A DNA stretch of 64,000 bases from a bacterium HR40. GTDB taxonomy: Bacteria > Pseudomonadota > Alphaproteobacteria > Geminicoccales > Geminicoccaceae. Below, one piece after another: positions 540-13,650 of the stretch. Numbering within the stretch: the stretch's first letter is position 1; each line of letters starts with the position of its first letter. Position numbers and translations under genes: made by a program. The stretch is from contig BEIQ01000002.1 of NCBI GenBank assembly GCA_002898275.1, forward strand, positions 310,001 to 374,000, written 5' to 3'. The notes under the pieces were generated by a model. It had not been told where the DNA came from, ran no database searches, and worked only from the letters and a program-made list of their open reading frames with translations.

Positions 540-1874
540 CTGTCCCGGGTCGCGCTCGCTTGGCTGCTGCTCGTCGCGTCGCCCCTAGCGGCTGCGGAAA
601 GGCTGGAGGGCGAGTGGGCCTCGGGGCTCGAGCAGGCCGCGCGCGCGGTCGAGAGGGGCGAGCTCGGGGAAGCCGAGAGCCTCCTGCGCAGGCTGCTCGA
701 GCGCTCCGCGGACAGCGACGCCGACCGGCTGGCCCGCGCCACGGCTCTCAACAATCTCGGCTTCGTGCTGTTCCGCCAGGACCGCCTCGACGAGGCACAG
801 CAGGCCTACGAGGAGGCGCTCGAATGGCGCCGCCGCACCGTCGGGCGCGACGACCCAGCCGTGGCGCAAGTGCTGAACAATCTCGGCGAGCTCGCGCGCA
901 CCCGCGGCGACACCGAGACCGCACTCGGGTTCCACCGCCAGGCGCTCGACATCCGGGAGAGGCTGCTCGGTCCGGATCATCCGGAAACGGCCCAGAGCCT
1001 CATGGCGATCGCCGTGCTGCTGGCCGAGAAAGGCCGGCCGGCGGAGGCACGGCCCTTCGCCGAACGGGCCCTTGCCATCGTCGAACGGGCCTTCGGTGGC
1101 AACGACCGCCGGGTCGCCGACGCCGCGATCGCGGTCGCGAGCGTCGCGGCCTATCTGGGCGATCTCGCGGCGGCCGAGGCCCATCTGCGGCGCGCGCTCG
1201 CCCTCTACGAGGCGATGCCCGCTCCCGATCCCGCGGCCCTGCGCACCACGCTCTTGCAGCTGGCGGAAGTCCTGCGGCGGAGCAAGCGCAGCGCCGAGGC
1301 GGTGCCACTGCTCGAGCGGGCGGTGGCCTTGGCCGAGCCCGAGCGCGCCCCTTGGGCGCCTTCGGCCGAGCGCGCCCGCATCCGCAACGATCTTGGCGTC
1401 AACCTCTTCGAGTCGGGCGAATTCGAACGGGCGCGGGCAGAACTCGAGCGGGCAGTCGAACTCTACGACGCCTCGCCAGGGGTCGATGCCGGCGACTCCC
1501 TCGCCGCGCTCGTCAACCTCGCTGCCGTGCTGGCGGCTCTCCATGCCAACGATGCCGCCATCGCCACCCTCGAGCGGGCGATCCGGCGGGCGGAAGGGCT
1601 CCCGGCAGAGCGCCGCGGCGAGCTCGCGCGCCTGTGGAACGATCTCGGCGCCCTGCAGTTCACCATGGGCCGGTTCGCCGAGGCGGCGGAGAGCCTCGGG
1701 CGCGCCGTGGAGCTCGCGGAAACCGCCTCGGGCGGCGACACCCGCGGCCTGCCGCTCTATCTGCGAAACCGCGCGGCCGCGCTCATGGAACTCGACCGCG
1801 AGGCCGAGGCCCGCAGTTTGATCGAGCGGGCGACGAGGCTCGAGAAAGCGGCGGCCGAACGCGGCGGGTCGTGA
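540..1874 (+). CDS. Exported tetratricopeptide-repeat protein
   Basis: About 444 residues. An N-terminal hydrophobic stretch (ALAWLLLVASPLAAA) ending in an AAA-type cleavage site indicates export to the periplasm. The rest is built of TPR helices: ALNNLGFVLFRQDRLDEAQQ, VLNNLGELARTRGDTETALG, RNDLGVNLFESGEFERARAE and WNDLGALQFTMGRFAEAAES are clear repeats of the kinesin-light-chain type. TPR domains are protein-protein scaffolds and no enzymatic motif is present. The start is uncertain: the frame continues upstream into the dehydratase gene, there is no ATG, GTG or TTG just ahead of the signal peptide, and CTG at 540, four bases after the dehydratase stop, is the best placed candidate. Partner unknown. 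Confidence 0.7.
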   Translation: MSRVALAWLLLVASPLAAAERLEGEWASGLEQAARAVERGELGEAESLLRRLLERSADSDADRLARATALNNLGFVLFRQDRLDEAQQAYEEALEWRRRTVGRDDPAVAQVLNNLGELARTRGDTETALGFHRQALDIRERLLGPDHPETAQSLMAIAVLLAEKGRPAEARPFAERALAIVERAFGGNDRRVADAAIAVASVAAYLGDLAAAEAHLRRALALYEAMPAPDPAALRTTLLQLAEVLRRSKRSAEAVPLLERAVALAEPERAPWAPSAERARIRNDLGVNLFESGEFERARAELERAVELYDASPGVDAGDSLAALVNLAAVLAALHANDAAIATLERAIRRAEGLPAERRGELARLWNDLGALQFTMGRFAEAAESLGRAVELAETASGGDTRGLPLYLRNRAAALMELDREAEARSLIERATRLEKAAAERGGS

Positions 1875-1879
1875 GCCGG

Positions 1880-1894
1880 GAGCGCTGCGCGCTC
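1880..1894. terminator. Hairpin between convergent genes
   Basis: GAGCGC (1880-1885), loop TGC, GCGCTC (1889-1894) form a perfect 6-bp stem between the convergent stops of the TPR gene and yejF. It overlaps the last codons of yejF. There is no T-tract, so intrinsic termination is not proven; a bidirectional pause or end structure is possible. Confidence 0.3.
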
Positions 1895-3512
1895 AGCCCG
1901 AGACAGCCTCCGGCTCGGCGACCTCGAGATCGAGGGCCGCAGCGAGCAGCGCCCGGGTATAGGCCGCCTGCGGCCGCTCGAAGATCTCGGCGGCGGGGCC
2001 CTGCTCCACGACCCGCCCTTCCTTCATCACGATGACCTGGTGGGCGAGCGCCCGCACCACCCGCAGATCGTGGCTGATGAACAGATAGGCGAGCCGGTGG
2101 CGTTCCTGCAGGCTGCGCAGGAGCTCGACGATCTGCGCCTGGACCGAGACGTCGAGGGCGGAAGTCGGCTCGTCGAGGACGACGAAGCGCGGCTCCAACA
2201 CCATGGCCCGTGCGATGCTGATACGCTGACGCTGGCCGCCCGAGAATTCGTGCGGGTAGCGGTCCATCATCTCGGGGTCGAGGCCGACTTCCTCGAGAAT
2301 GCGGGCGACGCGCTCGCGCCGCTCCTCCGGCGAGCGAACGAGGCGATGGACCAGCAATCCCTCTTCCACGATCTCGCCGACGGTCAGGCGGGGGCTCAGA
2401 CTGCCGTAAGGGTCCTGGAACACGATCTGCATCTGCCGCCGCAGCGGCCGCATCTGCTTCCACGACCAGCCCTGGATGTCGGTGCCGGCAAAGCGAATCG
2501 CGCCGTCGCTCGGGAGCAGTCGCAACAGGGCAAGGCCGAGGGTCGTCTTGCCCGAACCGCTTTCGCCCACGACCCCCACCGTCTCGCCTTCGCGCACCGC
2601 GAGGGACACCCCGTCGACCGCGCGAATCCACCCGACGGTGCGGCGCAGGAGGCCCCGCTGGATGGGGAAATGCACTTTGAGATCGCGCGCCTCCATGACC
2701 ACCGGGGCCTCGGCGCGGACCGCGGGCGGCCGCCCGCGTGGCTCGGCCGCGAGGAGATGGCGCGTGTAGGGATGCTGCGGCGCCTCGAACATGCGGGAAA
2801 CGGGCCCTTGTTCGACGATCTCGCCCTGGGTCATCACGCACACGCGGTCGGCCATCTTGCGGACGATGCCGAGATCGTGGGTGATGAGCAGCACCGCCAT
2901 GCCGAGGCGCCGCTGGAGGTCGCGAATGAGCCTCAGGATCTGAGCCTGGACAGTGACGTCGAGGGCCGTGGTCGGTTCGTCGGCGATCAGCAGATCGGGC
3001 TCGTTGGCGAGCGCCATGGCGATCATCACCCGCTGGCGCTGGCCGCCGGAAAGCTGATGGGGGTAAGAGGCGAGGCGGCGTTCGGCATCGTCGATGCCGA
3101 CGAGACGCAGCAGTTCGACCACCCGCTCGCGCGCCTGCTGGCGGCTCATCCGGCGATGGAGGATGAGCACTTCGCTCACCTGCTGCTCCACCGTGTGCAA
3201 CGGGTTGAGCGAAGTCATGGGCTCCTGGAACACCATGCCCACCCGGTTGCCGCGAATGGCGCGCAGCGTCGCCTCGTCCGCTCCCACCATCTCGCGACCC
3301 AACAGGCGGATGCTGCCCGAGGGGTGGAAAGCCCGTGGATAGGGCAAAAGCTGAAGAATGGAGAGAGCGGTTACCGTCTTGCCGGAGCCGCTCTCGCCGA
3401 CAAGCGCCAGGATCTCGCCTCGATCGAGCGAGAAAGAGACCCCGCGTACCGCCTCGACGATACGCCCTTCCATCCGGAAACTGACGGCGAGATTCGACAC
3501 TTCGAGCAGCAT
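1893..3512 (-). CDS. yejF: ABC transporter ATPase YejF (two nucleotide-binding domains)
   Basis: 539 residues holding two complete ABC ATPase domains in one chain. The first has Walker A GESGSGKT at 39-46, signature LSGGQ at 154-158 and Walker B LLIADEP near 174-180. The second has Walker A at about 316-323, FSGGQ at 423-427 and FVVLDEP near 443. Each domain is followed by the oligopeptide-transporter extension ([20 protein letters not shown]). This double-ATPase form is typical of YejF, which powers the YejABEF importer for peptides and peptide-nucleotide antibiotics such as microcin C. It lies last in a yejA-yejB-yejE-yejF run, 7 bp after yejE. It acts on the cytoplasmic face of the inner membrane. 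Confidence 0.93.
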
Positions 3513-3519
3513 CGCGGCC

Positions 3520-4584
3520 TCAGCGAAAGGTCTTGCGCGGGTCCATGGCGTCGCGCACCGCCTCGCCGACGAAGACGAGGAGCGAGAGGATGGTGGCGAG
3601 CACCACGAAACCGGTGATACCGAGCCACGGAGCGTGCAGATTGTTCTTGCCCTGGGCGAGCAATTCGCCGAGCGACGGCGAGCCGGGCGGCAGGCCGAAA
3701 CCGAGGAAGTCGAGGGAGGTCAGGGTGGTGATCGAGCCGTTGAGGATGAAGGGCAAAAAGGTGAGGGCCGAGACCATGGCGTTGGGCAGGATGTGTCGGA
3801 ACATGATGACGAGGTTGGACACACCGAGCGCCCGGGCCGCGCGCACGAATTCGAAGTTGCGCACCCGGAGGAATTCGGCCCGCACCACGCCGACCAGAGA
3901 CATCCACGAGAATAGCAGCATGATGGTGAGCAGGAGCCAGAAGCTCGGGGTGAAGATGCTGGCGAGGATGATGAGCAGATAGAGGACCGGGAGGCCCGAC
4001 CAAATCTCGATGAAGCGCTGGAACAGCAAATCGACCCAGCCGCCCGCATAGCCCTGGATCGCTCCGGCGGCGATGCCGATGATCGAGCTCGCCAGGGTCA
4101 ACACCAGGCCGAAAAGCACGGAGATGCGAAAGCCGTAGATCACGCGAGCCAGCACATCGCGCGCCTGGTCGTCGGTACCGAGCGGATTCTGCCAGCTGGG
4201 CGGCGACGGCGCCGGACCGGGCAGATCGCGGATGACGGTGTCGTAGCGGTAGGGGATGGGGGGCCACAGGATCCACCCCTTCTCCTCGATCGCCGCCCGG
4301 ACGAAGGGATCGCGATAGTCGGCCTCGGTCGGGAAGTCGCCGCCGAAGGTGGTCTCCGGATAGGTGAAAAACACCGGAAAATAGAAGCGGCCGTCGTAGC
4401 GGATGCAAATCGGCCGGTCGTTGGCGAGGAACTCGGCGAACAGGCTGATCCCGAACAGCCACAAAAAGATGACGAGCGACCAATAGCCCCGGCGGTTCGC
4501 CCGAAAATTCTCCAGGCGGCGGATGCCGAGGGGTGTGAGACGCAGGCGAACGCCCAGGAAGCGGTACGGGATGCGCCGCGCCAT
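3520..4584 (-). CDS. yejE: ABC transporter permease YejE
   Basis: 354 residues. A first membrane span near 35-52 (LVIFLWLFGISLFAEFLAND) is followed by a long periplasmic insert containing FPVFFTYPETTFGGDFPTE and WQNPLGTDDQARDVLARVIYG, the usual YejE/DppC N-terminal block. A BPD-transport permease domain of about five spans follows. The coupling loop (EFVRAARALGVSNLVIMFRH) carries the EAA-type motif that docks onto the ATPase. The ATG at 4584 gives MARRIPYRFLG, a normal YejE start, 5 bp after the yejB stop. It pairs with YejB as the second channel subunit of the peptide importer. Confidence 0.93.
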   Translation of the reverse strand: MARRIPYRFLGVRLRLTPLGIRRLENFRANRRGYWSLVIFLWLFGISLFAEFLANDRPICIRYDGRFYFPVFFTYPETTFGGDFPTEADYRDPFVRAAIEEKGWILWPPIPYRYDTVIRDLPGPAPSPPSWQNPLGTDDQARDVLARVIYGFRISVLFGLVLTLASSIIGIAAGAIQGYAGGWVDLLFQRFIEIWSGLPVLYLLIILASIFTPSFWLLLTIMLLFSWMSLVGVVRAEFLRVRNFEFVRAARALGVSNLVIMFRHILPNAMVSALTFLPFILNGSITTLTSLDFLGFGLPPGSPSLGELLAQGKNNLHAPWLGITGFVVLATILSLLVFVGEAVRDAMDPRKTFR

Positions 4585-4589
4585 CGACC

Positions 4590-5687
4590 TCACACCCGTC
4601 TCGCTTCGAAGTCGATCCGCGGATCCACCAGCATGTAGGTGAGGTCCGACAGGAGATTGACGAGCAAGCCGAGCAAAGTGAAGATGTAGAGGGTGGCGAA
4701 CATCACCGGGTAGTCTCTGTTGATCGCGGATTCGAAACCCAGCAGGCCGAGTCCGTCGAGCGAGAAGATGACCTCGATCAGCACCGATCCCGTGAAGAAC
4801 GCGCCGATGAAAGCGCCAGGGAACCCGGCGATGACGATCAGCATGGCGTTGCGGAACACGTGTCCGTAGAGCACGCTCCTCTCCGTCAATCCCTTCGCCC
4901 GTGCGGTCATGACATATTGCTTGCCGATCTCCTCGAGGAATGAATTCTTCGTGAGCATCGTGAGGCCGGCGAAGCTTCCAATAGACATAGCCAAAACTGG
5001 CAACGTAATGTGCCAAAGATAATCGACGATCTTCATCGGCCAAGAGAGTTCGTGCCAGTTCTCCGACACCAGGCCCCGCAGCGGAAACAACTGGAAATAG
5101 CTGCCGCCGGCAAACAGAACGATCAGCAGTATGGCGAAGAGAAACCCCGGGACGGCGTTGCCGACGATCACCACCGTGCTCGTCCACACGTCGAAACGGG
5201 AGCCGTCTTTCACCGCCTTGCGGATCCCGAGGGGGATCGACACCAGGTAGCTCAGGAGCGTGGTCCACAGGCCGAGGGAGACCGACACCGGCAGGCGTTC
5301 GCCGATCAGTTCGAGCACGCTCCGGTCGCGGAAATAGCTCTCCCCGAAGTCGAAGGTGAGGTAGCGCCGCATCATCTCGAGGAAACGCTCGTGCGCCGGT
5401 CGGTCGAAGCCATAGAGCCGCTCGAGCTCGCGGATGAACTCGGGGTCGAGGCCACGGGCACCGCGATAGACGCCTTCGCCTCCGCTTTGGCCCGCCGGAG
5501 CCGCGGTCTCGCCCCGGGCGGCTCCCGTGAGGCGTGCGGTCGCCTCGACGCCGCGTCCCTGGATATCGGCGATGATGCGCTCGATCGGACCGCCCGGAGC
5601 GGCCTGGATGACCACGAAGTTGACGATCATGATGCCGAGAAGGGTGGGCACCATGAGGAGCAGCCGCCGCAGGATGTAGGCGCCCAC
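4590..5687 (-). CDS. yejB: ABC transporter permease YejB
   Basis: 365 residues beginning [20 protein letters not shown], the standard first span of DppB/YejB permeases. The next region has the family block [20 protein letters not shown] and [20 protein letters not shown]. It is followed by five membrane spans and an EAA-type loop ([20 protein letters not shown]). It ends with [16 protein letters not shown], the usual C-terminus. A Gly/Ala-rich insert near residues 52-75 ([20 protein letters not shown]) lengthens the first periplasmic loop slightly. It sits between yejA (32-bp gap) and yejE (5-bp gap), so it is almost certainly co-transcribed. With YejE it forms the inner-membrane channel. Confidence 0.93.
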
Positions 5688-5719
5688 TCGTCAGCCTCCC
5701 TGCCGCCGCCCGAGCGCCG

Positions 5720-7555
5720 TCAACGCCCCGCACCTCGGGCTGCTTGGAGGGCGGCGAGCTTCGCGGGATCCACCCACCAGGCGAAGAGGTCGAGGTCGTG
5801 CCGCGGCAGCACGGCGGGTCGTCCGAACTTGTTCCAGTAGGCGACGCGCAGGTAGGGGATGTGCCAGTGCGGGATCACGTAATGACCCCAGAGCAGCACC
5901 CGGTCGAGGGCCCGGCAGGCAGCCACCAGTTCCTCGCGCGAAGGGGCCCCGATGATCCGATCGATGAGAGCGTCCACCACCGGATCGCAGACGCCAGCCC
6001 AGTTGCGACTGCCGGGGGTGTTCGCCGCCTCGCAGCTCCAGAAGTCGCGCTGCTCATTGCCGGGTGACAGGCTCTGACCCCAGACCCCGACGATCATGTC
6101 GAAGTCGAACTGATTGACCCGGTTCTCGTATTGCGCGGTGTCGACGGTGCGCACGCTCGCCTCGATGCCGAGGCGCGCGAGGTTCTGGACGAACGGTCCG
6201 ACGATACGCTCGAAGGCAGGGTTGACGAGCAGGATCTCGAAGCGCATGGGCATCCCGCTCGCCAGCTGCACGAGCCTGCCATCCCGCACGTCCCAGCCCG
6301 CCTCGCGCAGCATGCGCAAGGCCGTGCGGAGCTGCTCCCGCAGATTGCCGCTGCCGTCGGTCTTCGGCGGCTCGTAGCGACGGGTGAACACCTCCGCCGG
6401 CAGGCGGTCGCGGAAGGGTTCGAGCAAGGCGAGCTCCGCCGGCCCAGGCAGGCCCTCCGCCTCGAGCTCGCTGTTCTCGAAATAGCTGTCGGTGCGCGTG
6501 TAGGCACCGTAGAACAGCGTGCGGTTGGTCCACTCGAAGTCGAACGCATAGGCCAGCGCCGCACGGACTCGCCGGTCGCGAAAGATCTCGCGACGCGTGT
6601 TGAACACGAAACCCTGCATGCCCGCCGGCTGTTCCACGGGGATTTCTTCCTTGACGATCCAGCCGCGCTCGAGGGCCGGGCTGTCGTAGCCCGTCGCCCA
6701 CAGTTTCGCCGTGTTCTCGAGGCGGATATCGTACTGGCCAGCCTTGAACGCCTCGAGGGCGACGTCGCTATCGCGATAGTATTCGTAGCGGATCTCGTCG
6801 AAGTTGTAGCGGCCGCGGTTGACGGGGAGATCGGCTCCCCACCAATCGGTGACGCGCCGATAGACGATGGTGCGACCGGCGTCCACGCGCTCGACGCGAT
6901 AGGGTCCGCTGCCGAGCGGCGCATCGAGGGTCGCCCGCTCGAAGTCGCGCCCTTCGTAATAGTGCTTGGGCAGAACGGGGAGCTGGCCGACGATGAGCGG
7001 CAGCTCGCGGTTGGTGCCACCCTCGAAAAGAAAGCGCACCCGCCGCTCGCCGATTTTCTCCGCCTTGACGACGTTCCTGTAGTAGGCACGATAAAATGGA
7101 TGACCCTTGGACTTCAGGGTGTCGAAGCTGAAAATGACGTCCTCGACGGTGATCGGCCGACCGTCGTGCCAACGCGCCTGCGGCCTGAGATCGAAGGCGA
7201 CCCACGAACGGTCCTCCGGCACGAGGATGCTCTCGGCGATCTCGGCATATTCCGAAAAGGGCTCGTCCTGCGACTGTACGGTAAGCGTTTGAAAAACGAG
7301 CCCCAGCCCCGCCGCCGGCACACCCTTGAGGATATAGGGATTGAGACTGTCGAAGGTGCCGATGGCCGAGAAGATCACGGTGCCGCCCTTGGGGGCATCC
7401 GGGTTCACATAGTCGAAATGGCGGAAATCCGGGCCGTACTTCGGCGCGCCATGCATCGCGACGCCGTGCACCGGTGTCGGTTCCTCGGCGGCGCTGGCAA
7501 AAACCGCGGGAAGGGCGAAGAGCAGGAGGGCGAGCGCTGGGCGCGACAGCACCAT
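5720..7555 (-). CDS. yejA: Periplasmic peptide-binding protein YejA
   Basis: 611 residues from the ATG at 7555, which opens a good signal peptide (RPALALLLFALPAVFASAA) cleaved near residue 22. The mature protein starts VHGVAMHGAPKYGPDFRHFD and continues YVNPDAPKGGTVIFSAIGTF, diagnostic of YejA within the SBP_bac_5 oligopeptide-binding family. It delivers peptides to YejBE and is the first gene of the operon. The frame extends 18 codons upstream with an Arg-rich leader that would spoil the signal sequence, so the internal start is preferred. The 111 bp between this gene and the OmpA-like gene presumably carry the operon promoter; I see no clear consensus there. Confidence 0.92.
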   Translation of the reverse strand: MVLSRPALALLLFALPAVFASAAEEPTPVHGVAMHGAPKYGPDFRHFDYVNPDAPKGGTVIFSAIGTFDSLNPYILKGVPAAGLGLVFQTLTVQSQDEPFSEYAEIAESILVPEDRSWVAFDLRPQARWHDGRPITVEDVIFSFDTLKSKGHPFYRAYYRNVVKAEKIGERRVRFLFEGGTNRELPLIVGQLPVLPKHYYEGRDFERATLDAPLGSGPYRVERVDAGRTIVYRRVTDWWGADLPVNRGRYNFDEIRYEYYRDSDVALEAFKAGQYDIRLENTAKLWATGYDSPALERGWIVKEEIPVEQPAGMQGFVFNTRREIFRDRRVRAALAYAFDFEWTNRTLFYGAYTRTDSYFENSELEAEGLPGPAELALLEPFRDRLPAEVFTRRYEPPKTDGSGNLREQLRTALRMLREAGWDVRDGRLVQLASGMPMRFEILLVNPAFERIVGPFVQNLARLGIEASVRTVDTAQYENRVNQFDFDMIVGVWGQSLSPGNEQRDFWSCEAANTPGSRNWAGVCDPVVDALIDRIIGAPSREELVAACRALDRVLLWGHYVIPHWHIPYLRVAYWNKFGRPAVLPRHDLDLFAWWVDPAKLAALQAARGAGR

Positions 7556-7666
7556 GGAGGCATCCCTGGAACCGGGCGAGATAATGGCCCGCCGCCGGCG
7601 CCTTTCCAACCCTGGTGCACGCGCCGCGACCGCCGGACGGCACGGTCAGCTGCCCGTCTGCACTGG

Positions 7667-8338
7667 CTATGGCAGCGGTCGGAACTCGACGCGGCGGTTG
7701 ACGCCGTCGTACGGATCGGTTCCCGGTAGCGGCTGGCTTTCGCCATAGCCCACGATGCGCATGCGCTCGGGGCTGATCCCCCAACGCTCATAGAGATAGC
7801 GAGCGACCGCCAGAGCGCGCTGTTCCGAGAGCTGCTGATTGATCTGGTCGGCGCCCGAAGCGTCGGCATGGCCTGCGACCTCGATCGCGACCTCGGGGCG
7901 CTCCTCGCGCAGCATGCGGCCCACGGCGTCGAGATAGGGCAGAGAATCCGGCAAGAGGGCCGCCGAGCCCAGGGCGAAGTTGATGTTGAAGCCGACGCTC
8001 GCCCCTTCCGTCGCTGGCACGTCGGTCGTTGCCGGCGCTGCAGCCGTCGTGCTCGCGGGCGGCTGCTGAGGCGGCGGAGCGGGCGCCCCGAGCTTCGCCG
8101 GAGGGGGCGCCGCCGGTGCGGGACCCTCGGTCGAGGGATCGACGAAACGGATACCGCGGGTGCGCAGATTGCGCGTCTTCTGCCCCTGGCCGGGAAACAT
8201 GAGGTCGGCGAGCTCCGATGCCGAGGGCGCCTGACCGCGGAACAGATAGACCTCGCCGCCGAGGGCCGTCGGCACCGGCAGGAGCGAGGCGACGAGGAGA
8301 ACCGCCAGGATGTCGCGAGAACACGGCTTTGCCGACAT
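7667..8338 (-). CDS. Exported OmpA-family peptidoglycan-associated protein
   Basis: 223 residues. The ATG at 8338 is preceded by GGAGGAAGG and opens a signal peptide (ILAVLLVASLLPVPTALG, cleaved about residue 27). Residues 70-110 are a Pro/Ala linker. Residues 115-222 are an OmpA C-terminal domain: INFALGSAALLPDS, then EVAGHADASGADQINQQLSE with the peptidoglycan-binding Asp and Arg region, then VGYGESQPLPG and NRRVEFRPLP. It should bind the cell wall non-covalently in the periplasm. There is no lipobox and no N-terminal beta-barrel, so it is a soluble or anchored adaptor, not a porin. It is last in a leftward run of exported proteins next to the CsgG-like gene. Confidence 0.85.
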   Translation of the reverse strand: MSAKPCSRDILAVLLVASLLPVPTALGGEVYLFRGQAPSASELADLMFPGQGQKTRNLRTRGIRFVDPSTEGPAPAAPPPAKLGAPAPPPQQPPASTTAAAPATTDVPATEGASVGFNINFALGSAALLPDSLPYLDAVGRMLREERPEVAIEVAGHADASGADQINQQLSEQRALAVARYLYERWGISPERMRIVGYGESQPLPGTDPYDGVNRRVEFRPLP

Positions 8339-8423
8339 GGCCTTCCTCCACCGGCTGTTTCGGGAATCTGGCGGCATGCAAGCACCGCTGGCACGCGGGG
8401 CGCAGTGATGCCGATCACCCGCG

Positions 8424-8762
8424 TCAGCGGGCCGTCACGATGCAGACCGCATCGGCTACCGGCACCACCAGCACAGCCGCCCCCTGGCCGCCCTCGCGCT
8501 TGAGCCGCACGCTCGCATCGCTCAGCACGCTGCCGAGGTCGACGGCGCGGAACCCCCCGGCTTCGAAGATCTTGGATCCCTGCTGGAAGCAGACGGCGTC
8601 GAGGCGCTCGGCCTCGATCGCGAGCTGGCCGCCAGGCTTCGGCTGCGGGCGCGTGTCGATGCCGGCTGCGGCTGCGGTGACGGAGGTGGCGCTCGCCAGG
8701 AGGGCCGCGAGCAGGCCATGGCTGGCACGGTGACGCGCAGGTTTCACCTTGGTCTCTCCCAT
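8424..8762 (-). CDS. Small exported protein of unknown function (cysteine pair)
   Basis: 112 residues with a signal peptide (residues about 10-33, GLLAALLASATSVTAAAAG). The mature chain of about 79 residues begins GIDTRPQPKPGGQLAIEAER. It holds two cysteines, in DAVCFQQGSK and in VADAVCIVTAR at the C-terminus, which could form a periplasmic disulfide. I recognise no family. The gene reads leftward, 85 bp upstream of the OmpA-like gene and divergent from the DUF2807 gene. A perfect 14-bp palindrome lies in the 85-bp divergent spacer. The ribosome site is weak, so the start is only fairly sure. Given the company of exported proteins it may be part of the same surface system. Confidence 0.65.
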   Translation of the reverse strand: MGETKVKPARHRASHGLLAALLASATSVTAAAAGIDTRPQPKPGGQLAIEAERLDAVCFQQGSKIFEAGGFRAVDLGSVLSDASVRLKREGGQGAAVLVVPVADAVCIVTAR

Positions 8763-8807
8763 CTGCCGTGACGCCACTCGCTGCGGTGGGTGGCGCCGGG
8801 GAACTGC

Positions 8808-8821
8808 CCATGCTAGCATGG
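8808..8821. promoter_or_regulatory. Perfect 14-bp palindrome in divergent promoter region
   Basis: CCATGCTAGCATGG reads identically on both strands. It lies in the 85-bp spacer between two divergent genes for exported proteins (starts at 8762 and 8848). A palindrome of this length in so short a spacer is unlikely by chance, and the position suits an operator for a dimeric regulator. No regulator family can be assigned. Confidence 0.4.
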
Positions 8822-8847
8822 TCCGGTCGTCGAGCCGATGCCTCGCC

Positions 8848-9624
8848 ATGCGTACCGCCCTTTGCCTCGTCCTCGGCCTCGCGGCGGGCACCGCTGTCGC
8901 CGCCGACCAGCGCAGTTTCGGCCCCTTCTCGGCGGACACGGTCGAACTCGAGGATTTCTCCGGCGAACTCGAGGTCGCCGTGGTCGACCGACCAGCGATC
9001 GAGATCCGGCTCTCTGCCACCGCCGAAGACATCGCCGCCTTCGCCGCGACCTCGGACGGCAGCCGGTTGCGGCTGCGCGGTCCCCAGCGCACGCAGGGGT
9101 CCGCGACCGTGGTGGTGGGCGGCGTTCGCGTGTTCTCGCGCGGTGGCGAGGCGTCGGTGGTGATCGGCGGCCAGCCAGCCGACCGCCAGGCACCCGTGCC
9201 GCGTCTCTCGCTCGCCCTGCCGCGCGGCACCGCCCTCGAGCTTTCGGGGATCGCCGGCGAGGTGCACGTCGGCGACACCGAGGCCCCCTTCGCTCTCGCA
9301 CTGGTCTCCGGCAGGGCGACGGTGGGCAGCGTGGCGGCCGCCCGGATCGCGCTCTCGGGCAGCGGCGAGGTGCAGGTCCAGGCGGTGCGCGAGAGGCTCG
9401 ATGCCGCCATCGACGGCTCCGGCAGCATCGTGGTGGCGAGCGGCGAGGTCGAGCGAGCCAGCTTGGTGGTACGCGGTGCCGGGGACATCCGTTTTGGCGG
9501 CACGGCGCGGCAGGCGCGCGCCGAGATCGCGGGCGCTGGGACGATCGTCATCCACGCGGTGCACGAGCCCCCCGAAGTGTCGGTGTCGGGAGCGGGAAGG
9601 GTGGACATCGAACGGCATCCGTGA
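8848..9624 (+). CDS. Exported DUF2807-type (GIN domain) beta-solenoid protein
   Basis: 258 residues with a clear signal peptide (RTALCLVLGLAAGTAVAA). The mature chain is an almost continuous run of short beta strands separated by Gly/Ser: LEDFSGELEVAVVD, ALELSGIAGEVHVGD, RIALSGSGEVQVQAV, AAIDGSGSIVVASGEVERAS, LVVRGAGDIRF, AEIAGAGTIVIHAV, VSVSGAGRVDIE. The G-[SA]-G-x-[IV] turns are typical of DUF2807 (head GIN domain, putative adhesin). Family members are periplasmic or outer-membrane proteins of unknown role. The ATG at 8848 is chosen because it starts the signal peptide; an ATG at 8818 is in frame. It converges on the CsgG-like gene with 14 bp between stops. Confidence 0.75.
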   Translation: MRTALCLVLGLAAGTAVAADQRSFGPFSADTVELEDFSGELEVAVVDRPAIEIRLSATAEDIAAFAATSDGSRLRLRGPQRTQGSATVVVGGVRVFSRGGEASVVIGGQPADRQAPVPRLSLALPRGTALELSGIAGEVHVGDTEAPFALALVSGRATVGSVAAARIALSGSGEVQVQAVRERLDAAIDGSGSIVVASGEVERASLVVRGAGDIRFGGTARQARAEIAGAGTIVIHAVHEPPEVSVSGAGRVDIERHP

Positions 9625-9638
9625 GGAGGAGGGCGGTC

Positions 9639-11168
9639 TCAGCTGCCGACCGTGATGGGGACGCGGGCCTGCACGAACCGCACCCGATTGCCGCCCACCT
9701 TGCGGAAGGCCTCCACCACCTCGTCGAGGGACTTGACCGGCAGCGGTGCCAGATCCTGCACCTTGAGCGCCGGCGGCAGCTGGGTGCCGAGCTCGAGGTC
9801 GGCGGCGACGCACAGCAGCTCCTCCTGCGCGCCCGGCTGGTCGAAGACGATCTCGAAACCGGCCGCCGGTCCCGGGACCTCGATGGTGGCATTCGCCCCG
9901 ACCAGGGCGTTCGGCTGGAACCGGTTCGGGAACACGCGGGCGACGTTGCCGGTGGCGTCGCGATAATAACAATAGGCGAAGGCGTCGCGACTGCTGCGCA
10001 GGCTCACCCGCAATCTTTCGCCCACTCGGTAGCTCGGCCGCGGGCCGCGCTCGGTCGTGAGCTCGAGCTCGAGAGGTCGCGCCACCGGCGCGGCAGCGGG
10101 AGCGAGGGCCGAAAGCGCACCCCCCGCGTCGGGACGCCGAGCGAGGGCGAGATCGCCAGCGATGAGCGCGGCGTAGAGGTCGAAGTCGATGCGACCGTTG
10201 GCTTGCAGGCCGTTGGCGGCCTGATAGGCGCCGATGGCATCGCGCACCTCGCTGCCGAGGATGCCGTCGAGCGGTCCGGAATAATAGCCGGCTCCGGCGA
10301 GGGCGCGCTGAACGAAGAGCACCCGCTCCTTCTCGCTCATGCTCTCGAACCAGTCTCGAGCCTGCGCCATCACCGCTGGATTGGTCTGCTCGATCTGCAG
10401 ACAACGCCAATAGGGCACCTGCGCCAGCTTACCCAGCGCCTCGATGAGGCTGAGTTCGACCAGATTGCGCACGCCCTGGTGCATGCCCTCGTTGCGGTTG
10501 AACGAGAGATTGAAGTTGAGCCCGAGCTCGATTTTCTCGATCGTCCCTCCGGCATCGTAGGATTCACCGCTGCGGCGGACGACGATGGTGTTACTCGATG
10601 TCGTACCTGGTATGATCTGGCGCGTCAAAAGATCGCCCACGTTGAGATCGACGGTGATGAGGGACACCACCTGATCGGCGCTGATCCCGGCATCGACAAA
10701 GGGAAGCGAGAAACCGGCGCCGGCGTTCTCCGCGACGATGTTCTCGTCGAACTGGGATATGGCTCCTCTCAGATAGTAATTGGGAACGAGGAACGTGTCG
10801 GTGAAGCCGACCAGCTGCTGCAACGCATTGATGTCGAACTGCGATTGGTCGAAATCGACGAAGCGGAAAGCCTTGCTTTTCATCGACATCCGCGAGATCG
10901 CCGAGATCATCATCTCCTTGGTTCCGGCCGTGATCTCGCCGGTCGCGTCCGGTATCCCCTGACTGGTGACGACGATGTCGCGAACGCCGAACTGGGCGAA
11001 CAGCTCGTCCATGCAACGCAGCGACTCGCTGAAGTTCGTCACCGTGCGCACCGGCCGCGTCTTCGGGGCCGCGATCTCCGGTGCCTTTTCCGGCGGTGTG
11101 AAGGCGCAGCCGGCCGCGCCCAGAGCGAGCACGCCGGCGCCCGCCATGGCGGCTGCATTCCATCTCAT
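9639..11168 (-). CDS. CsgG-like lipoprotein with peptidoglycan-binding and DUF4384 domains
   Basis: 509 residues. The ATG at 11168 follows a strong GGAGG and opens a lipoprotein signal ending LALGAAGC, with Cys21 as the lipidated residue. Residues about 40-260 resemble CsgG/HfaB outer-membrane secretion lipoproteins: an ISRMSMKSKAFRFVDFD stretch, YYLRGAISQFDENI, VDLNVGDLLTRQIIPGTTSS, and LIEALGKLAQVPYWRCL at the end. Residues about 280-340 are a peptidoglycan-binding (PG_binding_1) module (VQRALAGAGYYSGPLDGILG, then IGAYQAANGLQANGRID). Residues about 365-505 look like DUF4384 (YRVGERLRVSLRSSRDAFAY, then VFPNRFQPN). CsgG forms the export pore for curlin subunits; the two extra domains are unusual. 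It is 41 bp downstream of the 102-aa secreted gene and probably co-transcribed with it and with the repeat gene. Confidence 0.8.
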   Translation of the reverse strand: MRWNAAAMAGAGVLALGAAGCAFTPPEKAPEIAAPKTRPVRTVTNFSESLRCMDELFAQFGVRDIVVTSQGIPDATGEITAGTKEMMISAISRMSMKSKAFRFVDFDQSQFDINALQQLVGFTDTFLVPNYYLRGAISQFDENIVAENAGAGFSLPFVDAGISADQVVSLITVDLNVGDLLTRQIIPGTTSSNTIVVRRSGESYDAGGTIEKIELGLNFNLSFNRNEGMHQGVRNLVELSLIEALGKLAQVPYWRCLQIEQTNPAVMAQARDWFESMSEKERVLFVQRALAGAGYYSGPLDGILGSEVRDAIGAYQAANGLQANGRIDFDLYAALIAGDLALARRPDAGGALSALAPAAAPVARPLELELTTERGPRPSYRVGERLRVSLRSSRDAFAYCYYRDATGNVARVFPNRFQPNALVGANATIEVPGPAAGFEIVFDQPGAQEELLCVAADLELGTQLPPALKVQDLAPLPVKSLDEVVEAFRKVGGNRVRFVQARVPITVGS

Positions 11169-11209
11169 CCCCGGTTCCTCCCCGCCCTCCGCTCTGTCCT
11201 CCGTACCTC

Positions 11210-11518
11210 TCAGCGGCAGCGCGCGACATTGATGACGTCGCCAGTCACCACCACGGTCTGATCCACTTTCTGCCCAGGCTTGGTGTTCTCGACGTTGCCG
11301 ACGTCGAGTTTGCCGCAGCCGGTATTCACCACGTCGCCGCGCACCACGGTGGCCCCGGCCGTGGCCCTCTTCGCCCGTTCCCGCGCGAGCACGCGGTCGA
11401 TCTTGGCCCGCGTCTGCGGCGCGATATGCGGCCGCTTGTTGTATTCCCGCGCGTCGACAGGCGGCAGCGACCACAGGACGCAGAGTGCGAGGACGAGACC
11501 GAGGCGAAAGACTGTCAT
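11210..11518 (-). CDS. Small exported protein, candidate minor subunit of a CsgG-like system
   Basis: 102 residues with a signal peptide (LGLVLALCVLWSLPPVDA, cleaved about residue 23). The mature chain starts with a basic helix-like segment (QTRAKIDRVLARERAKRA). It ends in a beta-rich tail, GDVVNTGCGKLDVGN, then QKVDQTVVVTGDVINVARC, with cysteines 68 and 101. The tail shares the pattern [DN]QTxxVxG with the repeats of the neighbouring upstream gene. I know no named family; the size and place beside a CsgG-like gene recall small holdfast-anchor or curli subunits (inference). It lies 73 bp after the repeat gene and 41 bp before the CsgG-like gene, all leftward. Confidence 0.65.
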   Translation of the reverse strand: MTVFRLGLVLALCVLWSLPPVDAREYNKRPHIAPQTRAKIDRVLARERAKRATAGATVVRGDVVNTGCGKLDVGNVENTKPGQKVDQTVVVTGDVINVARCR

Positions 11519-11591
11519 GGGATTGTCCACCCTGACCACCGGGAGGCGGGCCTTGCGACCCGCCCCGCGGTAGGGTTCGTCCTGCCGTCGC

Positions 11592-12035
11592 TTAACAGTC
11601 GGGATTCTCACCGATGCTGCCGATGGTGGTGCAGGCCTTGGTGCCGAGCCCGAGGGCGGTGGTGTTGGTCGTCCCCAGCACCGTCGTCGTCTGGTTGACG
11701 TTGCCACCGACCTTCGCCCCCGCCACCACGCCGATGCCGGTCGCCGCTTTCGCCCCGAGTCCGAGGGCCGTGGTGTTGGTGGTTCCCAGCACCGTCGTGG
11801 TCTGGTTGAGATTGCCGCCGACGTCGGTGCCGGCTCCGACCGACCCGATCCGGGTCTTGGCCTCGCTGCCCAGCCCGAGGGCGGTGGTGTTGGTGGTTCC
11901 CAGCACCGTCGTCGTCTGGTTGGCATTGCCGCCGATCTTCACACCGCCCGGCTGCGCCTGAGCGAAGACCTGGGTCGAGCCGAAAGCGAGTACCAAAGCG
12001 GCTCCGGTCAGCAAGTGAGCGAGCTTGTTGCGCAT
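11592..12035 (-). CDS. Exported curlin-like triple-repeat protein
   Basis: 147 residues. The ATG at 12035 is preceded by AGGAGG and opens a signal peptide cleaved near residue 26 (GSTQVFAQA). The mature chain is three repeats starting at residues 35, 73 and 110. Each contains GGNxNQTTTVLG directly followed by TTNTTALGLG, then a variable 15-16 residue spacer. The third ends in CTTIGSIGENPDC, giving cysteines 135 and 147. Composition is almost only Gly, Thr, Asn, Ala, Val, Leu and Gln, as in amyloid-forming curlins, though the exact CsgA spacing (SxxxQxGxxN) is not matched. It is probably an exported, self-assembling surface fibre subunit (inference). It is first in the leftward run with the CsgG-like gene. 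Confidence 0.75.
   Translation of the reverse strand: MRNKLAHLLTGAALVLAFGSTQVFAQAQPGGVKIGGNANQTTTVLGTTNTTALGLGSEAKTRIGSVGAGTDVGGNLNQTTTVLGTTNTTALGLGAKAATGIGVVAGAKVGGNVNQTTTVLGTTNTTALGLGTKACTTIGSIGENPDC
11644..11934. repeat. Three direct 66-bp repeats inside the curlin-like gene
   Basis: Nearly identical 66-bp units lie at 11644-11709, 11755-11820 and 11869-11934, with periods of 111 and 114 bp. Each encodes the invariant 22-residue core of the exported repeat protein. Codons are conserved along with the amino acids; only a few positions differ. This suggests recent duplication or ongoing homogenisation between units, and copy number could vary between strains. Confidence 0.85.
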
Positions 12036-12597
12036 GGCGTGTCCTCCTCTTGGCATCAAGCCAGATGGCCCGATGAGCCGCTGGCAACCGCCTTTGTGTC
12101 ACCTTCGCATCCGGCTGACAGTGATGCATATCACATCGGAACGTCCAATCAAAGGCCGATCAAATCTCTTGTCGATCCGTCGTCTTCCAGGACCGCGTCG
12201 GCAAATCGTTCTATGGATAAGTTGCGGGCTCGACGCGCGAGAACGGGAAACGCAGAACCATTTCCGTAGCAAATCGGGAAAACATCTTCCCGCACCGGAA
12301 AGCCTAGCGCAAGACCGACGAAACTCGCTCGGCCTCGACCGGGATGTGGGCAACCGCTGTTATCGAAATCTTGGAGGTCCCTCGGACAGGACATCGGGCA
12401 TGGACGACGCCACCGCCCCGATACCGGGCAATGCGAGCCTTTTGCCGTCGCAACGACCGAGGCTCGAACGGGCCGATCGGAGCACCGCGCAGGGACGAGA
12501 AAACGCCCTCGTCGCGCGCCGTCGTTCCGTGCCGCCGGCAGGAGTCGCCAGGAACGCTCTGCGCCGCGCCGCGGAGTTAGCGAATCGCGGCATGGGT
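12036..12597. other. Intergenic region upstream of the curlin-like gene
   Basis: 562 bp without a convincing gene. Short open frames cross it on both strands, but none has a ribosome site, signal or recognisable product. Bases about 12120-12260 are richer in A and T than the surroundings. The only structured element I see is the Crp/Fnr-like palindrome at 12121-12134. The region presumably carries the leftward promoter for the repeat gene; no convincing -35/-10 pair was found. Confidence 0.6.
12121..12134. promoter_or_regulatory. Crp/Fnr-family-like operator
   Basis: GTGATGCATATCAC is an inverted repeat GTGAT-N4-ATCAC. Read with flanks it is AGTGA-N6-TCACA, matching the Crp consensus TGTGA-N6-TCACA in nine of ten positions; it also keeps the GAT-N4-ATC core of Fnr/FixK sites. 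Its centre is about 92 bp upstream of the start codon of the curlin-like gene, a plausible activator position. Which family member would bind cannot be read from the site. Confidence 0.45.
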
Positions 12598-13650
12598 TCA
12601 GGCGCGCCGCAACATCCAGCGCAACAGCTCCCGGTAGAGCGAGCGGTCGACTTCAGCGGAAAGCCGCTGAGAGAGCGGACCATCGAGTTCGGACGGCTGG
12701 ACGCGCTTGAACTGTCGCCAGCGCGCGAATTCGCGCGGCAGGCCGGCGAGGGTACGCAGCATGCGCTCGAGGGGTGGTGTCAGCGGTTGGTAGCCGAGTT
12801 CCCGCATGGTGCGGCCGGCAATCCATTCGATGGCTGCGACCTCCCAGGCGTCCAGCTCCTTTCGCCAGCGTTGCGGATCCGTGGCGCCGAGCGGCCGGCG
12901 GACATTGTCCTTCCACGGCTGGCCACGAAAGCCGGGTTCGCCGATGCGGTAGAAGTCGAGCATGGTCGGGTCGAAGGGTTCGCCGACGGCTTGGCAGATC
13001 CGCTTCAGTTGCGCTTCCGGTTCGGCGAGCAGGTCCTCGTAGCGCACTTCGATCACGTTCGCCGGCCGTGGCCAGCGGGCGAGAGCCCGGCGGCCGAGGT
13101 CGACATCCAGGCGCCATTTCACGGCGTGGGTCAGCACGTCGTGCGAACTGCGGGGCAACTGCCGGCGCGAGGCCACCTGGGCGCGGGGATCGCGCACCAC
13201 ATGGACGATCCGCGCATCCGGGAACCAGCGGACGATGGTCGCGAGATGGCGGACGTTCCATGGCGTCTTCTCGCCGTAGCGCCGTTTGCCTCGCGCCTCC
13301 GCCGCCCGCTTCATGAGGAGCAGATAGAAGAGCTGCCAACTCGCGCGCGCCCCCGCCTGCTCGAGCTCCTCGCGCACCCGCGCGAGCACCGGATCGAGCC
13401 CGCGCCAAAAGCGGACGTGGTCGAGCTGCGGCAGCAACTGGAAGAAACGCTGGCGCCGCTGCGGCGTATCGAGCTGCGGGATCTCGCGCCGAAGTGCGAG
13501 GATGTGGTCGAAGAAGACGAGCTCGTCGAGAATGGCTATCGCCGGATGGGCATCGAGCATGCGCTCGACGAGCGTGGTCCCGGAGCGCGGCGCGCCCACG
13601 ACGAAGATGGGCGACTCCGCGGCGAACACCTCCTCGCCTAGCTCTACCAT
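12598..13650 (-). CDS. Sulfotransferase family protein
   Basis: 350 residues. The 5'-phosphosulfate-binding loop for PAPS is clear: FVVGAPRSGTTLVERMLDAH, with PRSGTT at 21-26. The 3'-phosphate motif follows near the middle (RIVHVVRDPRAQVASRRQ). The family blocks YGEKTPWNVRHLATIVRWFP and EVRYEDLLAEPEAQLKRICQ are also present. It belongs to the Sulfotransfer_3/PF13469 group that moves sulfate onto carbohydrates, lipids or other acceptors; the acceptor cannot be read from sequence. No signal peptide is present, so it should be cytoplasmic. The ATG at 13650 follows GGAGAG. It lies 125 bp downstream of the PEPC-like gene and may form its own unit. Confidence 0.85.
   Translation of the reverse strand: MVELGEEVFAAESPIFVVGAPRSGTTLVERMLDAHPAIAILDELVFFDHILALRREIPQLDTPQRRQRFFQLLPQLDHVRFWRGLDPVLARVREELEQAGARASWQLFYLLLMKRAAEARGKRRYGEKTPWNVRHLATIVRWFPDARIVHVVRDPRAQVASRRQLPRSSHDVLTHAVKWRLDVDLGRRALARWPRPANVIEVRYEDLLAEPEAQLKRICQAVGEPFDPTMLDFYRIGEPGFRGQPWKDNVRRPLGATDPQRWRKELDAWEVAAIEWIAGRTMRELGYQPLTPPLERMLRTLAGLPREFARWRQFKRVQPSELDGPLSQRLSAEVDRSLYRELLRWMLRRA

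Follow-up and report, generated by a model that had tools for sequence, protein, structure and literature searches.

To our knowledge, the known uses of CsgG-type channels are curli and holdfast anchors. CsgG also serves as a sensing nanopore, and the export of Fap runs through FapF, which is not CsgG-like. In the Caulobacter holdfast anchor, the CsgG-like protein HfaB places the small proteins HfaA and HfaD on the cell surface (PMC6707917). The repeats of curlin average 23 residues (PMC10192328), and each imperfect repeat of FapC forms one Greek-key cross-beta layer (PMC12392863). In Neisseria, MafA, an oligomeric outer-membrane lipoprotein described as resembling CsgG, exports a dedicated partner (PMC7738311). 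CsgG relatives outside curli are not new as such, since most Pfam CsgG matches were already recorded in 2012 as lying outside curli systems, with 171 of 601 being correct (PMC3521004).

We analyzed a stretch of 64,000 nucleotides from the alphaproteobacterium HR40 (the window), in which a cluster of genes for exported proteins includes a CsgG-like lipoprotein. We propose, with a probability of roughly 60%, that this cluster encodes a CsgG-type surface-fibre system of a third type with a wall-tethered channel. A defined and conserved gene set for this CsgG-like branch appears to be new. Searches of the open-licence PMC literature found no paper joining CsgG with DUF4384, and the excerpts of that literature on "CsgG-like" proteins contained no description of this cluster.

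Layout and recurrence of the gene block

The original prediction had described five leftward genes for exported proteins, and all of them, like the other gene positions it gave, were confirmed in the window. On the minus strand, read from right to left, the gene for a 147-residue repeat protein (11592-12035) is followed by those for a 102-residue exported protein (p102; 11210-11518) and a 509-residue CsgG-like lipoprotein (9639-11168), and then by those for a 112-residue exported protein containing a pair of conserved cysteines (p112; 8424-8762) and an exported OmpA-domain protein whose N-terminus bears a short conserved motif (7667-8338). The OmpA domain occupies the C-terminal part of the last protein (about 7709-7978; Pfam OmpA, 8.4e-17). 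A gene on the plus strand, encoding an exported DUF2807 (head GIN domain) protein (8848-9624; Pfam, 7.8e-11), splits the leftward block between the CsgG-like gene and p112. It had been described as divergent, which is correct with respect to p112, whereas it is convergent with the CsgG-like gene. The repeat gene and p102 are separated by 73 bases, and p102 and the CsgG-like gene by 41 bases, a spacing consistent with one transcript for these three genes. A tRNA search of the window returned none, and a promoter and terminator scan stayed near chance level. Judged from the open reading frames, one flank appears to carry a peptide ABC transporter and the opposite one a sulfotransferase and a phosphoenolpyruvate carboxylase, with the sulfotransferase-like gene upstream of the cluster at 12598-13650 on the minus strand.

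In GTDB genomes, 101 relatives were identified by a scan, and 80 loci were kept. They were mostly from Alpha-, Beta- and Gammaproteobacteria, including Pasteurellaceae, in addition to Magnetococcales and one bin labelled Myxococcales. In locus counts that are lower bounds because contig ends and gene calling limit detection, a profile search recovered p102 homologues from 66 of the 80 loci, directly upstream of the CsgG-like gene on the same strand and within 1 kb in 61 loci, and the p112 and OmpA-like families lay within 6 kb in 39 and 37 of the 80 loci, respectively. DUF2807 genes also recur beside the cluster in relatives. The original prediction had looked to alphaproteobacteria for co-occurrence of these genes; the computed comparison established that the set does recur, p102 being found near the CsgG-like gene, and that its range extends far beyond this class, which had been missed.

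The association was also observed in an even sample of the phylum, consisting of 398 genomes chosen for neither gene and searched with p102 and CsgG-like profiles built from the loci. The p102 family was carried by 12 of the 398 genomes, 11 of which had a CsgG-like domain close by (hypergeometric p of 4e-14 for the co-occurrence, with the own genome excluded and kinship uncorrected). Since a match can come from the PG-binding and DUF4384 domains by themselves, a raw tally of 167 genomes was discarded and only matches covering the CsgG part were counted, which gave 20 genomes, one of them in pieces. Among the 31 genomes of the host family, the repeat gene is present in all seven that carry the CsgG-like gene and in two further genomes in which the channel gene was undetected. 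One genome of the host family (G020, in 310 contigs) has several repeat-protein genes (L031, L037, L038 and L040), and the CsgG-like gene was not found in it.

Some of the surroundings of the relatives may be recorded here. On two annotated Azospirillum plasmids, the homologues are named "DUF4384 domain-containing protein", "OmpA family protein" and "hypothetical". On plasmid AZO_p4 of Azospirillum lipoferum (L153), the homologues are followed by genes for FHA-domain, PP2C phosphatase and trypsin-like peptidase proteins, a hint of signalling control. Genes for caspase-domain (Peptidase_C14) proteins lie no more than 6.5 kb from the CsgG-like gene at L052, L054, L055, L058 and other loci. They make up 8 of 45 hand-picked neighbour proteins, among which WD40 propellers and Sel1 repeats are also present; no caspase-domain gene adjoins the cluster in the window.

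The CsgG-like lipoprotein

The lipoprotein, a predicted outer-membrane export channel with a C-terminal wall-binding part, consists of a CsgG-like domain (residues 40-261; 10386-11051), a PG_binding_1 domain (residues 281-335; 10164-10328; Pfam, 1.5e-13) and a DUF4384 domain (residues 379-456; 9801-10034; Pfam, 1.7e-19), all encoded on the minus strand. Its lipobox, read from the sequence as AAGC with Cys21, was invariant in the first family alignment. DUF4384 was present in all 51 aligned family members and PG_binding_1 in 41 of the 51 (E<=1), and the latter domain structurally matches that of SltB3 with 32% identity. Cys52 and Cys256 are invariant across the family and probably form a disulfide. 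The OmpA protein had been predicted to anchor the system. It may do so, but the PG-binding domain on the CsgG-like protein, which had been overlooked, means that it is not the sole possible wall anchor.

The Pfam CsgG model scored 12.5 bits on the lipoprotein, below the cut-off of 20.8, and no CsgG above this cut-off was found in the genome. We accepted the CsgG fold despite this score because structure and profile comparisons agree. The AlphaFold2 model, built with 51 homologues, had a mean pLDDT of 78.5 and a pTM of 0.58, with low confidence at the tip of the long hairpin. In a Foldseek search of solved structures, all 25 chains at E<=0.001 were CsgG, and VIA-align gave Z scores of 13.4 to 14.1 between residues 40-261 and the best CsgG entries. 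The match includes the strands at residues 131-155 and 158-179, which take the place of the first membrane hairpin of CsgG. Profile comparison aligned the family with CsgG from end to end, including the hairpin region (E of 7.8e-8), and also matched it to HfaB-like proteins (E of 1.4e-7) and, over a shorter alignment, more weakly to a mixed set of further lipoproteins from the Pfam CsgG family (E of 4.4e-5). The CsgG-like nature that had been predicted is confirmed at the level of model and profile, CsgG being the best solved match.

This comparison also bears on another reading, in which the lipoprotein would be a periplasmic ring or scaffold similar to PelC or LpoB, bracing the outer membrane against the wall or taking part in polysaccharide export, with the small proteins as periplasmic scaffold parts. 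The core fold is indeed common to PelC, FlgT, LptE and other proteins (Z of 8 to 9.7, none above 9.7), peptidoglycan binding would be expected from the domain content, and the pTM and the uncertain hairpin tip fit a scaffold as well. However, CsgG is clearly ahead with a Z of 14 and the match reaches its first membrane hairpin, as opposed to PelC and similar folds, which have no membrane hairpins. Furthermore, exported repeat proteins constantly accompany the CsgG-like gene. We therefore consider the scaffold unlikely and retain the export channel.

Shorter relatives of the CsgG-like protein, mostly from Rhodobacteraceae and mostly matched only to about residue 335, occur without p102 nearby (L109, L110, L113, L114, L116, L117 and L119-L121) and perhaps form a sister group with other partners. 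At L041 (G045, about 1500-11900), a different and remote CsgG-like gene is present in tandem copies. Each copy adjoins the gene for an exported protein of roughly 380 residues (FDDVDWRWDAEINEVITKTID...), and the two are possibly another CsgG-like export pair.

The repeat proteins and p102

The 147-residue protein, the predicted fibre subunit, has a signal peptide and three units of 37 to 38 residues encoded at about 11613-11942 (minus strand), and its internal self-similarity had a z of 24.8 against shuffles. Homologues adjoin the CsgG-like gene in relatives. Among proteins of 70 to 500 residues around this gene, with export assigned by a crude signal-peptide rule, 76 of 619 within 5 kb were exported and internally repetitive (some TPR/Sel1-like, OmpA-like and DUF2807 proteins included), compared to 0 of 333 beyond 5 kb. 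A composition filter left 62 repeat proteins in 38 loci, and their commonest periods were 37, 35, 36, 31 or 38 residues. The curlin core QxGxxN was observed 73 times in these 62 proteins versus 13.8 times in shuffles; almost all occurrences were betaproteobacterial, and the repeat protein of the window has none. An exported repeat protein was undetected in about half of the loci, which is partly explained by contig ends and gene calling. A Pfam search of the repeat proteins of ten relatives found no curlin and mostly low-value or chance matches, and a search of PDB sequences with the repeat alignment found nothing at E<=10.

AlphaFold2, run with 8 sequences, modelled the window repeat protein with a pLDDT of about 85 over the repeats and with three main strands per unit, three times over. 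A stacked beta-solenoid is predicted from this model, the stacking being deduced from the strand pattern, in line with the stacked fibre that the original prediction had envisaged. Against all solved structures, Foldseek ranked FapC first (E of 0.009) and CsgA second (E of 0.055), both weak matches, and the VIA Z scores were similarly weak at 4.0 for FapC, the maximum, and 2.8 for CsgA. The likeness of the model to these two amyloid proteins is suggestive, not proof.

A true CsgG-type exporter could also carry non-amyloid substrates, such as soluble or surface-bound solenoids acting as adhesins or a coat. The model would suit such substrates in that it resembles folded solenoids and matches amyloids weakly, and a folded monomer could be capped by the terminal cysteines that the repeat proteins of alphaproteobacteria carry. 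The repeats are, however, near-identical stackable units, and the known substrates of CsgG and HfaB, namely CsgA and HfaA, are amyloid or amyloid-like (PMC6707917, PMC10192328), which makes a non-amyloid cargo improbable.

Two cysteines of the p102 family (residues 68 and 101) are invariant. By eye, p102 and the fibre protein look alike as strings, and p102 was considered as its one-repeat relative; the profile probability was below 2%, and this candidate was rejected. The proposal that p102 is a minor fibre subunit likewise gained no support, as the profiles of p102 and the repeat protein were not similar. Homologues of p102 were detected at more loci than repeat genes were, which favors a place at the channel over one in the fibre. 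It is most likely a dedicated channel partner, serving as a plug, chaperone, nucleator or adaptor.

For the surface-fibre system that we favor, we infer that the lipoprotein oligomerizes and that the repeat protein is the substrate it transports. The repeat protein would be secreted by Sec, kept unfolded and passed through the channel; outside the cell, it would adopt the stacked beta-solenoid and polymerize into a fibre or a surface coat. On the periplasmic side, the C-terminal PG-binding and DUF4384 domains of the lipoprotein would fasten the channel to the wall. The partner p102, whose gene directly precedes that of the channel, would take a part comparable to that of CsgE, CsgF or CsgB in curli, and p112, the OmpA-domain protein and the DUF2807 protein are probably accessory factors for assembly or anchoring. 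More tentatively, the cluster may represent a third, hitherto undescribed class of CsgG-dependent fibre systems found widely across Proteobacteria, in which a wall-anchored channel would export amyloid subunits whose repeat layers resemble those of FapC and whose fold is nearer to FapC than to curlin.

Relation to curli, holdfast anchors, Fap and MafA

In a tree of 47 proteins, the deep details of which are uncertain, the lipoprotein family formed one branch (support 100/100), and CsgG and the HfaB-like proteins joined each other (100/99). The family thus branches apart from both. The genome search found no curlin (PF07012), CsgE or CsgF, as had been anticipated for the latter two. In the NCBIfam scan, HfaB scored remotely on the lipoprotein (16.2 bits versus an equivalog cut-off of 300), and no Hfa name was assigned to the small cluster proteins. 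The profile similarities and the remote HfaB score might suggest that the cluster belongs to the curli or the holdfast-anchor (Hfa) family and has simply diverged. This is very improbable, given the separate branch, the missing curli components, the extra domains of the lipoprotein and the different partner genes.

A separate branch that has conserved partners of its own would enlarge the range of surface amyloids, and the CsgG-like set, mostly unnamed, spans bacteria from soil and sediment to symbionts and Pasteurellaceae. The cluster would allow a direct test of how CsgG-type channels recognize substrates without CsgE and CsgF. In addition, the built-in wall-binding domain suggests a different way of anchoring the pore, and a remote CsgG branch may be of interest to nanopore technology.

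Similar to curli, the cluster encodes a CsgG-fold, predicted outer-membrane lipoprotein beside small exported proteins of repeats that are predicted to stack. However, its predicted channel protein lies on another branch and carries PG-binding and DUF4384 domains, its 102- and 112-residue partners are its own, with CsgE, CsgF and curlin missing, and its repeats are 31 to 38 residues long compared to about 23 in curlin. The Caulobacter HfaABD system also combines a CsgG-like protein with small exported partners, but these partners differ, and in the tree the HfaB-like proteins group with CsgG and not with the family described here. The substrate of MafA is the secreted MafB and not a repeat protein. 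The likeness to Fap concerns the subunit: FapC has three imperfect repeats with one cross-beta layer each and gives the repeat model its best fold match, albeit a weak one, whereas no sequence similarity was detected between FapC and the repeat protein.
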